Positions 25,146 through 33,137 of a DNA stretch of 64,000 nt are shown in pieces. This DNA is from Planococcus plakortidis (GTDB lineage: Bacteria; Bacillota; Bacilli; Bacillales_A; Planococcaceae). The notes below the pieces were generated by a model. That model had not been told where the DNA came from and did not search any database. It saw nothing but the letters and a program-made list of their open reading frames with translations. Both the position numbers and the translations under genes were made by a program. Location of the stretch: assembly GCF_001687605.2 (NCBI RefSeq), contig NZ_CP016539.2, positions 1,332,501 through 1,396,500 on the forward strand, in the 5' to 3' direction. The stretch's first letter is position 1, and every line of letters starts with the position of its first letter.

Positions 25146-25156
25146 TGTGGAAAAAA

Positions 25157-25278
25157 AGAAAAGCGGAAGCTGCCGTTATGCTCCGACAGGCGTAAGCCGG
25201 GTTCCCGAAGCGGCGCTTTTTGCTGCATAGGGAAACTGGCTTACGACCCGAGGAGCAGGCAGCTGAAGCTAGACACCA
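25157..25278. repeat. Structured dispersed repeat, family 1, copy A
   Basis: A 122-bp unit repeated in tandem directly downstream (copy B) and again at 28414. Outer arms AGCTGCC (25168-25174) / GGCAGCT (25258-25264), inner arms GTAAGCC (25192-25198) / GGCTTAC (25238-25244) and an apical GCGGC/GCTGC hairpin predict one long stem. It lies between the T-box terminator and the thrS start, thus in the thrS mRNA. Confidence 0.75.
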
Positions 25279-25400
25279 AGAAAAGCGGAAGCTGCCGTTA
25301 TGCTCTGACAGGCGTAAGGCAGGGTTCCGAAGCGGCGCTGTTTGCCGCACAAGGAGGCTGGCTTACGACCCGAGGAGCAGGCAGCTGTAGCTGGACACCA
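25279..25400. repeat. Structured dispersed repeat, family 1, copy B
   Basis: Exact-length (122 bp) tandem copy of 25157-25278, about nine-tenths identical by eye. Apical hairpin GCGGC/GCCGC here has perfect pairs where copy A has a G-U. A truncated start of a third copy (AGAAAGCCGG) follows at 25401-25410. Confidence 0.75.
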
Positions 25401-25471
25401 AGAAAGCCGGAAACGCTGAACCAGACCCTGTGGTTCGCGATTCACCCAAATCACTTAAAGGAGAGATTCAT

Positions 25472-30352: not shown

Positions 30353-31441
30353 ATGTCGAAACTAGATGAAACACAACAAATGTTGAAAGAGCTAACAGAT
30401 GCGAATGGCATTCCCGGCAACGAACGCCAATCACGCGAGGTCATGAAGAAATACATAGAGCCGTTTGCTGACACGATCGAAACGGATAACCTCGGCAGCT
30501 TGATCGCCAAAAAAGAAGGGCTTGCAGACGGACCGAAAATCATGGTCGCCGGGCACTTGGATGAAGTCGGTTTCATGATTTCCCAGATCGACGACAAAGG
30601 ATTCCTGAAATTCCAAACGGTCGGCGGCTGGTGGAACCAGGTCATGCTAGCCCAGCGCGTGACGATCACGACACGCAGCGGGGAAGAAATCACAGGAGTC
30701 ATCGGATCCAAACCGCCGCATATCCTGTCTCCGGAAGCACGAAAAAAACCGGTGGAAATCAAGGATATGTTCATCGATATCGGCGCCTCTTCACGTGAAG
30801 AAGCAAAAGAATGGGGCGTCACCCCAGGCGATATGGTCACTCCTTATTTCGAGTTCACGGTCATGAACAACGACAAACTGTTGATGGCAAAAGCTTGGGA
30901 CAACCGCATCGGCTGTGCTATCGCCATCGATGTCTTGAAAGGCTTGAAAGGCGTCGACCACCCGAACGTCGTGTATGGCGTGGGGACGGTCCAGGAAGAA
31001 GTCGGCTTGCGCGGTGCGAAAACGGCAACTTCATACATCCAGCCGGATATCGGTTTTGCAGTGGATGTAGGGATTGCGGGAGACACTCCTGGCGTCACAT
31101 CAAAAGAATCCAACAGCAAAATGGGCGATGGCCCGCAAATCCTGTTGTTCGACGCTTCAATGGTCTCTCACCGCGGCTTGCGTGAGTTGGTAGTCGATAC
31201 AGCGGAAGCGTCAGGAATCCCGTACCAGTTCGAAACGATCGCGGGCGGCGGAACAGATGCCGGCTCGATCCACTTGACGGCAAACGGCGTGCCGGCCTTA
31301 TCAATTGGTGTAGCGACACGCTACATCCACTCGCACGCAGGCATTTTGCACCGCGACGATTACGAAAACGCGGTGAAATTGATTGTAGAAGTGATCAAGA
31401 AATTGGATAAAGACACTGTCACACGCATTACATTTGATTGA
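30353..31441 (+). CDS. ysdC: M42 family metallopeptidase
   Basis: The 362-residue protein is a glutamyl/cellulase-like M42 aminopeptidase. Metal ligands are visible: [11 protein letters not shown] (His), [11 protein letters not shown] (Asp, bridging), [11 protein letters not shown] (catalytic Glu-Glu), FAVDVGIAG (Asp) and [13 protein letters not shown] (His). Such enzymes form dodecameric tetrahedra that trim N-terminal residues from peptides in the cytoplasm. AGGAGG precedes ATG. Counterpart of ysdC after ysdAB. Followed by a strong terminator and then by accessory DNA. Confidence 0.9.
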
Positions 31442-31451
31442 ATAATGAAAA

Positions 31452-31480
31452 CCCCTCCAACTTTTGTGGAGGGGCTTTTT
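31452..31480 (+). terminator. Terminator after the M42 gene
   Basis: CCCCTCCA and TGGAGGGG form an 8-bp stem with a seven-base loop, then CT5. Confidence 0.92.
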
Positions 31481-31500: not shown

Positions 31501-31626
31501 GAATCGGCAAAATAAGGTTTATATTTCGCAAATAAACTAAGCCGGCTCGCAATCAACCAGAGGAATACCGCAAATAAATCATGGGGTTTTGCAAAGAACG
31601 GTAACCATCCCGCAAACAAAATGATT
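31501..31626. repeat. 21-bp-period array 1, six units
   Basis: The core GCAAATAA or a close variant starts at 31507, 31528, 31549, 31570, 31591 and 31612, exactly 21 bp apart. The six bases before the core tend to end in TC or CC; the rest of each unit varies. 21 bp is two DNA turns, so all cores face the same side. In one minus-strand frame the units read as heptads with a repeated Phe-Ala. Same orientation and length (126 bp) as array 2. Confidence 0.85.
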
Positions 31627-31708
31627 GGAAAAGTCCATAAGTGTCAATTGGTGGTGAAAGAGACTTTGCGGGATGCTATACTTCAATTATCATACTAGGA
31701 GGTGTTCA

Positions 31709-32671
31709 ATGGGCAAAAAAGAAATAGCGTTATTAACTGAAATGGAGTCATTGGAGCGGTTGTTATATCGATTGCCTGACAATCATTCACGCCGGGAATT
31801 TATCCAAGTTGAAGCTTTTAAAGCAGCTGCCGGAAAAAGAGGGGAAAAGAGACTGCACCGGAAGCTGGTTGAATTCGAGATGGAGGAGCAGTACCGATTT
31901 TTGAAAAATGTATGCTTGTCGAGAGGGCAGTGGAAAGTCCAAATGGATGGGTTGTTATTGACGGAGCGCGGTGCGATTGTCATTGAATCGAAAAATATTA
32001 GCGGCCAACTTTATTTTGATGATAAAACCGGCGAATTTTCAAGAACCAATATAGAAGGTGTAAAAACGATAATGGAAGATCCGACGATTCAGTTGAACAA
32101 GCATATTCGTTTCTTGACCTTGTTTTTCAAACAGCAGAAAATCGATTTGCCCATTTCGGGAATTGTCGTATTTACATCCAAACACTGTGAATTTCTGGCG
32201 AAGCCAGTCCACCATCACATCTGCAAAACGTATCAATTGGTCGATTATTTATTCAACATCCTTCAGGAATTCCCCCTAAAAAGCAACCCTCACGATTTAT
32301 CGGAAATTCAGAAACTCCTCGAACGATCCCAGGCCCCTTATGAGAGGAAACCGTTGTGCCATTTATATTCAATAGCAGAAACCGAACTGCTTACGGGCAT
32401 CTTGTGCAAAAACTGTAAAAACCTTAACGTGATGCGAAAGCATAAGAAAGGATGGGTTTGTGCCGACTGCCAAGCGGTGGATCCGCTCGCTTTTCAACAT
32501 GCAGTCCAGGAATATTTTTCCCTGGTTCATACACATCTAAGCAATAGGCAACTCCGGAAATTTTGCAAGATCGAATCGCCTTATATAACTTCCCGTTTGT
32601 TGGCCGTATATGATTTAGGGACTGCTGGTGCTTTGCGCAACCGGACATACTATTTAAAGAAAAAAGACTAG
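31709..32671 (+). CDS. NERD-domain nuclease-like protein with zinc ribbon
   Basis: The 320-residue protein has an N-terminal NERD domain (about 40-150) with the PD-(D/E)xK-like set GKRGE (E46), QMDG (D80) and VIESKN (E93, K95) intact, so nuclease activity is possible. A C4 zinc ribbon follows at about 240-262 (CKNCKN...GWVCADCQ) and a basic C-terminal tail. ATG 31709 is set by AGGAGGTG (31697-31704); an extended -10, TGC-TATACT (31674-31682), lies upstream. Codon use is clearly richer in A/T than neighbours, and two 21-bp-period arrays bracket it, suggesting acquisition. Its role is unknown; DNA processing or defence is possible. Confidence 0.8.
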   Translation: MGKKEIALLTEMESLERLLYRLPDNHSRREFIQVEAFKAAAGKRGEKRLHRKLVEFEMEEQYRFLKNVCLSRGQWKVQMDGLLLTERGAIVIESKNISGQLYFDDKTGEFSRTNIEGVKTIMEDPTIQLNKHIRFLTLFFKQQKIDLPISGIVVFTSKHCEFLAKPVHHHICKTYQLVDYLFNILQEFPLKSNPHDLSEIQKLLERSQAPYERKPLCHLYSIAETELLTGILCKNCKNLNVMRKHKKGWVCADCQAVDPLAFQHAVQEYFSLVHTHLSNRQLRKFCKIESPYITSRLLAVYDLGTAGALRNRTYYLKKKD

Positions 32672-32700
32672 CTTTTCGCGAAATGCGGAAAGCTTTTTTT
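32670..32700 (+). terminator. Terminator after the NERD gene
   Basis: AGCTTTTCGC and GCGGAAAGCT pair over 10 positions (one G-T) with loop GAAAT, then T7. Array 2 begins 3 bp later. Confidence 0.85.
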
Positions 32701-32702
32701 GC

Positions 32703-32840
32703 GGTTTTGCAAATAACTTGAGGTATTCTGCAAAAAAAGAATAGTTTTCCGCAAATAACTTAAGGGATTTCACAAATAACCTCATACATTCGGCAAATAA
32801 TCATCTATAATCCGCAAACATATCGAAACTCCGCAATTAA
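32703..32840. repeat. 21-bp-period array 2, six units plus a shifted seventh
   Basis: Cores GCAAATAA or variants start at 32709, 32730, 32751, 32772 (ACAAATAA), 32793 and 32814, again exactly 21 bp apart; a seventh core (GCAATTAA) is at 32833, 19 bp on. On the minus strand one frame reads L-F-A-E/K heptads through several units. No promoter or gene is evident inside; together with 32841-32870 it fills the gap before the HTH operator. Confidence 0.85.
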
Positions 32841-32936: not shown

Positions 32937-33137
32937 ATGCTGAGAAACCGGGTGAAAGAGCTGCGGGCGCGCTATGGGTACACGCAAAGCGACTTGGGCA
33001 AGCAAGTGGATGTGACGCGGCAGACGATCGCGTTCATCGAGAAAGGCGAATTTTCACCGTCGATTACATTGTCTTTGAAGCTCGCTAAAGTCTTGCAGGT
33101 GGAAGTAGGCGAATTATTTTGGCTGGAGGAGGAGTAA
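32937..33137 (+). CDS. XRE-family HTH regulator, small
   Basis: The 66-residue protein is a single Cro/C1-type helix-turn-helix (RVKELRARYGYTQSDLGKQV, then DVTRQTIAFIEKGEFSPS). ATG 32937 is preferred over GTG 32928, which overlaps the AAAAGGGTG ribosome site. It is followed after 2 bp by a membrane protein gene. Small XRE regulators of this type are commonly paired with membrane proteins in Firmicutes. A large inverted repeat upstream is a likely operator. Target genes beyond its own unit are unknown. Confidence 0.85.
   Translation: MLRNRVKELRARYGYTQSDLGKQVDVTRQTIAFIEKGEFSPSITLSLKLAKVLQVEVGELFWLEEE

Follow-up and report, generated by a model that had tools for sequence, protein, structure and literature searches.

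Most NERD-family genes of Bacillus-like bacteria apparently adjoin their own phased arrays of short direct repeats

Several described systems combine a DNA-acting protein with regularly arranged DNA sites. AspA, TubR and plasmid Rep are winged-helix proteins with iteron-type arrays; they are plasmid-borne and are not known to have a nuclease domain. In Tn7, the protein TnsA joins a PD-(D/E)xK endonuclease to a C-terminal winged helix, and regular protein-binding sites lie at the ends of the element. The REP/RAYT system comes closest to what is reported below. According to the available part of the paper that describes it, the enzyme gene lies between copies of a repeat that also occurs dispersed at intergenic positions, the enzyme coevolves with its repeat, and the presence of a RAYT correlates with the abundance of its cognate REP repeat; RAYTs are relatives of the IS200/IS605 transposases, and the palindromic REPs flank the gene as inverted copies (PMC2817692). 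The NERD domain (PF08378) is found in SmdA of Staphylococcus, a membrane-attached morphology factor that is without several of the most conserved NERD residues, and for which the available part of the paper mentions no arrays (PMC9040797). The literature covered, with most subscription journals and bioRxiv outside its scope, includes the available parts of PMC12802215, PMC11407518, PMC10910872 and PMC9040797 and yielded no description of NERD genes with arrays. What follows is apparently an undescribed system in Bacillus-like bacteria, in which most NERD-family genes adjoin their own phased DNA sites.

The locus lies in a window of 64,000 nucleotides from Planococcus plakortidis (the whole stretch of DNA that was analysed) and has the following features:

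30353..31441, plus strand: M42-family aminopeptidase gene (Pfam PF05343, E 8e-117), the upstream neighbour and landmark of the locus
31452..31480, plus strand: intrinsic terminator of the M42 gene, just before array 1 (hairpin and T-run by reading; the terminator scan agrees)
31507..31632, plus strand: array 1, six 21-bp units with a GCAAAYAA-like core, upstream of the NERD gene (E 3.9e-20 with model R1, which was built from 20 arrays including this one and array 2)
31709..32671, plus strand: NERD nuclease gene, 320 aa (Pfam, alignment A3, AlphaFold2 and fold matches)
32671..32700, plus strand: intrinsic terminator of the NERD gene, just before array 2 (hairpin and T-run by reading; the terminator scan agrees)
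32709..32840, plus strand: array 2, six 21-bp units and an extra core 19 bp on, downstream of the NERD gene (E 2.5e-22 with the same model R1; lag-21 z 7.2)
32937..33137, plus strand: HTH_3 regulator gene (Pfam), the downstream neighbour

The M42 gene is present in all 20 other congeneric genomes queried, and the HTH_3 gene follows closely downstream of it in several genomes that lack the NERD gene, e.g. G042. The cores were read directly at 31507, 31528, 31549, 31570, 31591 and 31612 in array 1 and at 32709, 32730, 32751, 32772, 32793 and 32814 in array 2, with a shifted core, GCAATTAA, at 32833. Thus the exact 21-bp step, the six units per array and the additional shifted unit are all as the first-pass annotation had reported. 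Its statement that every unit is the core or a one-base variant holds generally, with the exception of the first core, GCAAAATA, which is two mismatches away from GCAAAYAA. The arrays are direct repeats of non-palindromic cores, on one strand and on both sides of the NERD gene. Within the 64 kb, a six-unit run with a period of 21 begins at two positions (at most two mismatches per core against GCAAAYAA, both strands), and at the same tolerance per core the periods 15-20 and 22-30 gave no six-unit run. Single cores are ordinary: with one mismatch allowed there are 84 matches, and shuffled sequence has 72 on average. What is special is the phased run. Tandem Repeats Finder reported neither window array. 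A scan by self-similarity only, which scores array 2 at z 7.2, did not find array 1 at z>5.5, and array 1 is therefore the more degenerate of the two.

In seven species of the window clade conservation is higher in the cores than in the spacers: the identity for arrays 1 and 2 is 91.6% and 90.0% in cores, 79.9% and 83.8% in spacers and 84.9% and 86.7% in flanks. The only indels between the first and last core in these aligned species are the loss of one 21-bp unit in array 2 of L063 and an 11-bp deletion in L057, which extends into the last core of array 1. For orphan arrays, i.e. those away from a NERD gene, the comparison of core and spacer was discarded as evidence of selection because the detector requires the core.

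Other identities of the arrays were considered. That they are coding, with heptad-repeat peptides on the minus strand as the first-pass annotation had allowed, is extremely improbable: 21 bp does equal seven codons and short minus-strand ORFs overlap array 1, but every one of the six frames is interrupted by a stop in 11-19 of the 20 arrays, spacings of 19, 20 and 22 bp are also seen among the arrays of the genus, and other NERD genes have 20-bp arrays. An RNA element was rejected after RNAalifold on the 20 arrays gave three pairs with no covariation and Rfam, run on five related loci, gave two T-box leaders but no family at the arrays. A CRISPR array was rejected as well, on its 8-bp cores, 13-bp spacers, six units and spacers that are some 80-84% identical between species at the same locus; no cas gene is found among the three window genes put to Pfam.

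The gene between the arrays is A/T-richer than its surroundings, as had been claimed (42.2% GC, versus 52.1, 51.7, 47.9 and 53.4% in four neighbouring genes and 50.6% in the window). Its assignment as NERD nuclease-like is borne out by a PF08378 match of 61.5 bits (cut-off 22.1) over residues 42-156, with E 1.3e-16, and NERD is the sole family that Pfam detects in the protein. The PD-(D/E)xK site residues D80, E93 and K95 are all present. In addition, there is a C4 zinc ribbon (C233/C236/C251/C254). In alignment A3 (70 rows) D80, K95, C251 and C254 are invariant, and E93, C233 and C236 occur at 90% or more. An AlphaFold2 model of the protein (mean pLDDT 96.5) predicts a winged-helix-like fold at the C-terminus, built as helix-helix-helix-hairpin, and the fold matches of residues 37-190 are chiefly PD-(D/E)xK enzymes. 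Among solved structures, the best relative by sequence has an E of 0.52. The protein thus shares with Tn7 TnsA the combination of a PD-(D/E)xK domain and a (here predicted) C-terminal winged helix. In contrast to the Tn7 ends, the NERD arrays are direct and not inverted; neither TnsB nor TnsC is found among the three window genes put to Pfam, and the fold matches listed include no TnsA chain, which excludes nothing.

A known anti-phage defence system was rejected, as PADLOC gave no defence family at E<=1 for the window protein. A plasmid or phage origin was likewise rejected, with no relative at E<=1e-5 among 72,556 plasmid and 50,697 phage records. The absence from plasmids, together with the presence of several array types per chromosome, sets the NERD family apart from the iteron and partition systems.

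A scan by self-similarity at fixed lag, which is blind to the sequence of the core, revealed a linkage between NERD genes and arrays across the Bacilli. For 41 of 63 NERD genes an array of 20-22 bp, or the double of that, lies no more than 500 bp away at z>6, versus 2 of 222 control genes, which encode 200 aa or more and were taken from 400 kb of related genomes (Fisher p 6e-31, with kinship between genomes ignored). The 63 loci consist of 20 from the NERD match list of the genus, where the array near L297, L298 and L302 was already known (13/20), of the best match in each of 23 non-genus genomes (L324-L346; 16/23) and of 20 loci picked blind to their flanks (L347-L366; 12/20); the seven genus loci L317-L323 were excluded. 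Repeats at other lags alone add five controls and three NERD loci, the latter with 52-53 bp. At z>5 the proportions become 53/63 and 5/222, and the array is found on both sides at 12 of these 53 loci, downstream only at 30 and upstream only at 11, while 10 of the 63 NERD genes are without an array at that threshold. In further genomes, 27 of 30 NERD loci, read out of more than 100 match rows in 17 genomes and with no separate control set, have an array at z>5. The cassette of the first-pass annotation, with arrays on both sides, two helical turns per unit and no known description, therefore holds for the window and generalises to other NERD loci.

The lags that reached z>6 near the 63 NERD genes, when lags of 10-60 were tested, were 20 (7), 21 (30), 40 (6), 41 (6), 42 (13), 52 (4) and 53 (2), which is two, four or five helical turns. 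The repeats with a period of 52-53 bp adjoin three more distant NERDs (L356, L359 and L362). The units at L356 hold an inverted GGGTAA...TTACCC pair.

The array family itself is widely distributed. The GCAAA-type core at 21-bp spacing was seen, among the matches listed, in Neobacillus, Filobacillus, Fictibacillus, Metabacillus, Cytobacillus, Lysinibacillus and Ureibacillus. The named Bacillales records outside Planococcus that contain the GCAAAnAA pattern (MAGs excluded) represent 17 genomes, one of them known beforehand to have a NERD gene, and all 17 contain this NERD family, versus at least 56 of 250 genomes of the class, where the profiles and cut-offs differ (A3 at 1e-12 versus A2 at 1e-15). 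These genomes have up to 14 NERD matches each, some of which are fragments, and in 6 of the 17 one of the NERDs that were read (one or two in each genome) has at least two GCAAAnAA pairs on one side. Within Planococcus, the arrays commonly have six cores, are intergenic and are often found at the same positions in related species; the P. halocryophilus array in L094 is identical letter for letter to the one at G009:C2:11418. At L037, L042 and L055 successive arrays are separated by one or two small genes, and neighbouring arrays have spacer sequences in common, which suggests local duplication or gene conversion.

The cores differ between paralogs. The core is GCAAAYAA at the window gene and GGACAGTATT, TGATCATAGAA, CGCTCATAG or others elsewhere, and the core-blind scan found AGTTGCTCGTATA, AATCGCGCATA, TGAACGCGGATATA, TGATCATAGAATC, TTCGGACAGTATT and AATCGCTGATAAAC in 20-21-bp arrays beside further Planococcus NERDs, some genomes having up to 11 NERD matches among the matches listed. 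All three core families that were followed genome-wide recur as orphan arrays. Similarity between cores, taken in NERD-sense orientation, is related to similarity between the proteins (Mantel r 0.137, p 0.008; 49/72 loci with arrays), versus r 0.017 and p 0.396 for reverse-complement cores; the effect is modest. By region, r was 0.154 with the nuclease domain, 0.161 with the linker, 0.026 with the zinc ribbon (p 0.338) and 0.160 with the winged helix (p 0.024).

The pairing of core and protein could be followed for individual families. SGACAGTA is the core of the L312-type NERD, which in G006 is flanked by two such arrays in a genome with 14 SGACAGTA loci (our count). Among the matches listed, 25 of the 46 genus genomes have SGACAGTA arrays; nine genomes have a window-type gene as their only NERD match, and all nine are without such arrays. 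The same matches, with a cut for the L312 type that was chosen after viewing the match lists, distribute as 20 genomes with both the NERD and the arrays, 3 with the NERD only, 5 with the arrays only and 18 with neither; the cognate NERD is thus unclear in 5 of the 25 genomes with arrays, and the arrays are missing in 3 of the 23 with the NERD, which speaks against a strict pairing. CGCTCATAG, the core beside the L326 NERD, has 664 triple matches (at most two mismatches) in G247 and 9 in one congener, versus none in eight other genomes queried and none for the reversed control. The stretches of G247 (L455 onward) show an extreme expansion of this array family. A further departure concerns G012, G017, G026, G034, G038 and G045, where GCAAAYAA arrays are strong, the best NERD among the matches listed is less than 50% identical, and such NERDs as were read, one or two, either adjoin different cores or stand without an array.

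The two components tend to be present or missing jointly. Model R1 was made from sequence only, with 20 arrays of G000, G002, G005, G006 and G008, and is therefore biased to the core of these genomes; it found arrays in 38 of the 46 genus genomes among the matches listed. These 38 are among the 39 genomes that have a NERD match at E<=1e-30, a cut chosen after viewing the match lists, and none of the seven genomes without such a match has R1 arrays among the matches listed (Fisher p 1.5e-7). On a tree of the M42 gene (31 genomes, one gene, midpoint root) the presence of NERD changes at least four times and that of arrays at least five times, the extra change being G024.

The M42 locus shows the same in detail. 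Among the matches listed, this is the one locus of the window-type NERD; in 20 genomes R1 arrays flank it on either side, and G040 has them on a single side. A comparison with 20 other genomes (G026 was excluded, as its contig ends there) revealed neither NERD nor recognisable array in G019, G028, G041, G042, G035, G030 and G032. GCAAAYAA array remnants without a NERD gene are retained in G034, G017 and G045, with possibly degenerate ones in G025 and G033, and G013 has a TGATCATAGAA array and no NERD. In G003, G010, G038 and G024 the locus contains a NERD that is 38-40% identical to that of the window, with TGATCATAGAA-type arrays (TGCTCATAGAA in G038), and in G004 a NERD of 53% identity with GCAAGTAA cores. 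NERD type and array type therefore change together at this position. Lag-21 scores of 4.7-5.7 in the promoter region of the HTH gene in the NERD-less G019, G028 and G041, and in G025, are a weak counter-signal; there is no GCAAAYAA core, and they are taken as chance.

A similar relation was found at an orphan site, where the window genome has its other array locus; it precedes a LacI-type gene (L036). With the strict core pattern there are 10, 4, 5 and 5 cores in the NERD-positive G000, G014, G040 and G005, and none in the NERD-negative G019, G028, G041 and G042. When degenerate cores are included, the former have about 12 (in two arrays), 5, 7 and 7 units, whereas the latter have a single residual ATTCC-ACAAAA unit next to the same CCGCACC-type flank, shortened in G028; on the other flank only about a dozen bases are common. 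G035 was excluded, and the LacI-type gene is missing from five genomes. In these eight genomes the number of units follows the NERD gene, either via contraction after its loss or through lack of expansion.

The first-pass annotation had held that arrays at many unrelated loci would mark a generic repeat. GCAAA triples at 21-bp spacing do occur at many loci, in 25 of 46 Planococcus genomes (the reversed pattern had no match in 44 of the 46), and the eight exact-pattern matches that were read from other phyla or MAGs resemble plain tandem or coding repeats. It is nevertheless very improbable that the arrays are generic intergenic repeats unrelated to NERD, placed near it by chance or by a common preference for intergenic gaps. 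The repeat is not generic because the same geometry with other cores is found at most NERD paralogs, the core follows the NERD type, with exceptions, and Planococcus genomes without a close NERD have no R1 arrays among the matches listed; the excess over control genes and the contrast at the orphan site argue in the same direction.

Some observations stand apart from this comparison. A palindrome like GCTTTTCGC-NN-GCGAAAAGC adjoins arrays at L040, L054, L307, L319, L406 and L411 and also follows the M42 gene in G012, where it is all that is found at the locus, and in G013, the NERD gene being missing from both; it is possibly an operator or an old terminator. At 25156-25412 the window contains a 122-bp tandem repeat in two copies, just upstream of the threonyl-tRNA synthetase gene, and in L036 and L440-L443 a sequence resembling it (GCTTTTCGGCTGCG...) is found close to the orphan arrays at the LacI-type gene; judged by this resemblance it is perhaps a separate interspersed repeat family. 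In G002 (L047, 2751-4083), ORFs that by eye are like IS3-type transposases lie between the M42 and NERD genes, just past a short piece of the upstream array. Among viral contigs, 59 stretches (L212-L270) match the three-core pattern. The pattern also occurs on many contigs of the Spirochaetaceae MAG Pc512_bin53 (L095, L105, L108, L115, L116, L118, L123, L124, L141, L144 and L167), of which the two that were read, L095 and L116, contain tandem copies of the 21-bp unit GCAAACAAACTTATTTTGCT(C/A/G) that are almost identical; a phmmer search of these stretches gave no NERD ORF, and they are probably unrelated.

The arrangement of array, NERD gene and array could also be that of a transposon-like or homing cassette, whose nuclease mobilises either the cassette or the arrays. 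Recombination between the two direct arrays would then remove the gene and leave a solo array behind as an orphan. The direct arrays on both sides of the gene would fit, as would the remnants without a gene at the M42 locus (G013, G017, G034, G045, possibly G025 and G033), the two NERD types with different arrays at the same spot, and the massive spread of one core in G247. However, the family has no relative in the plasmid and phage records, the window-type NERD is confined to one locus (20 genomes and G040, among the matches listed), many orphan sites are common to several species, and at the NERD locus the spacers have diverged further than the cores. We therefore consider a mobile element unlikely.

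The reading that we consider probable is a system of two parts, a chromosomal NERD-zinc ribbon-winged helix protein and its cognate arrays, in which a short core commonly recurs about six times in direct orientation, every 20-21 bp; the protein, a predicted nuclease, would bind to these arrays. At this spacing all cores are on one face of the DNA. The C-terminal winged helix, possibly together with the ribbon, would read its own core, and several copies of the protein may line up along that face. The PD-(D/E)xK nuclease would thus be placed beside the gene that encodes it and at dispersed sites between genes, often immediately 3' of a gene. Arrays would last mainly while NERD is present, the protein either keeping them useful or actively maintaining and expanding them, in the latter case by cutting or nicking inside the units. 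What was observed is the geometry, the linkage, the difference between cores, the joint presence and absence and the single-unit sites in genomes that lack NERD; binding, multimers, cutting, maintenance of the arrays by the nuclease and a benefit to the cell are what we infer.

A variant of this explanation takes the arrays as a regulon and the protein mainly as a DNA-binding regulator or roadblock, for transcription or replication forks, at the ends of genes, with the nuclease domain used rarely or structurally; it includes a version at the RNA level, in which the protein binds read-through RNA. In its favour, the arrays occupy intergenic positions, frequently 3' of a gene. More specifically, of 26 array loci in Bacillales outside Planococcus (10 of which end at record boundaries, with long ORFs taken as genes), 13 are in sense orientation between co-directional genes, 1 is antisense, 2 are convergent and none is divergent, versus 32 divergent among 118 control gaps, and several arrays come straight after an intrinsic terminator. 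The preference is weaker for the SGACAGTA arrays, so we claim no general orientation rule, and sense orientation is here indistinguishable from the direction of replication. Moreover, the near-invariance of the catalytic residues and the absence of a conserved RNA fold argue against the variant, which we regard as rather unlikely.

For this two-part system REP/RAYT is the closest working analogy, with three signatures in common: repeats that flank the gene, coevolution, and a repeat abundance tied to the enzyme. Both have a chromosomal gene for a DNA-cleaving enzyme (here predicted), flanking repeats and orphan copies between genes, and as with RAYTs the abundance of the repeat follows the cognate gene, both for R1 arrays and for SGACAGTA and CGCTCATAG, among the matches listed. 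The NERD enzyme, however, combines PD-(D/E)xK, zinc ribbon and winged helix, with no Y1/HUH tyrosine transposase by Pfam or fold, and its repeats are phased direct arrays of non-palindromic cores. As enzyme class and repeat type both differ, the NERD system is not a member of REP/RAYT. It would represent a second, unrelated solution to the combination of an enzyme with cognate scattered repeats.

We tentatively extend this to a large family of array-addressed nucleases, a possibility to which we give less weight than to the two-part system itself, in which each paralog has its own address, many operate in parallel within one genome, and in-phase cutting maintains and expands the arrays that serve as docking platforms. 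If this is true, the flanks of most NERD genes would reveal the address code. The present findings propose partner DNA sites for a widespread protein family that occurs in at least 56 of 250 Bacilli genomes, and with dozens of naturally occurring pairs of protein and core, binding specificity is open to direct tests. In addition, the system offers a natural experiment in the retention and loss of repeat arrays.
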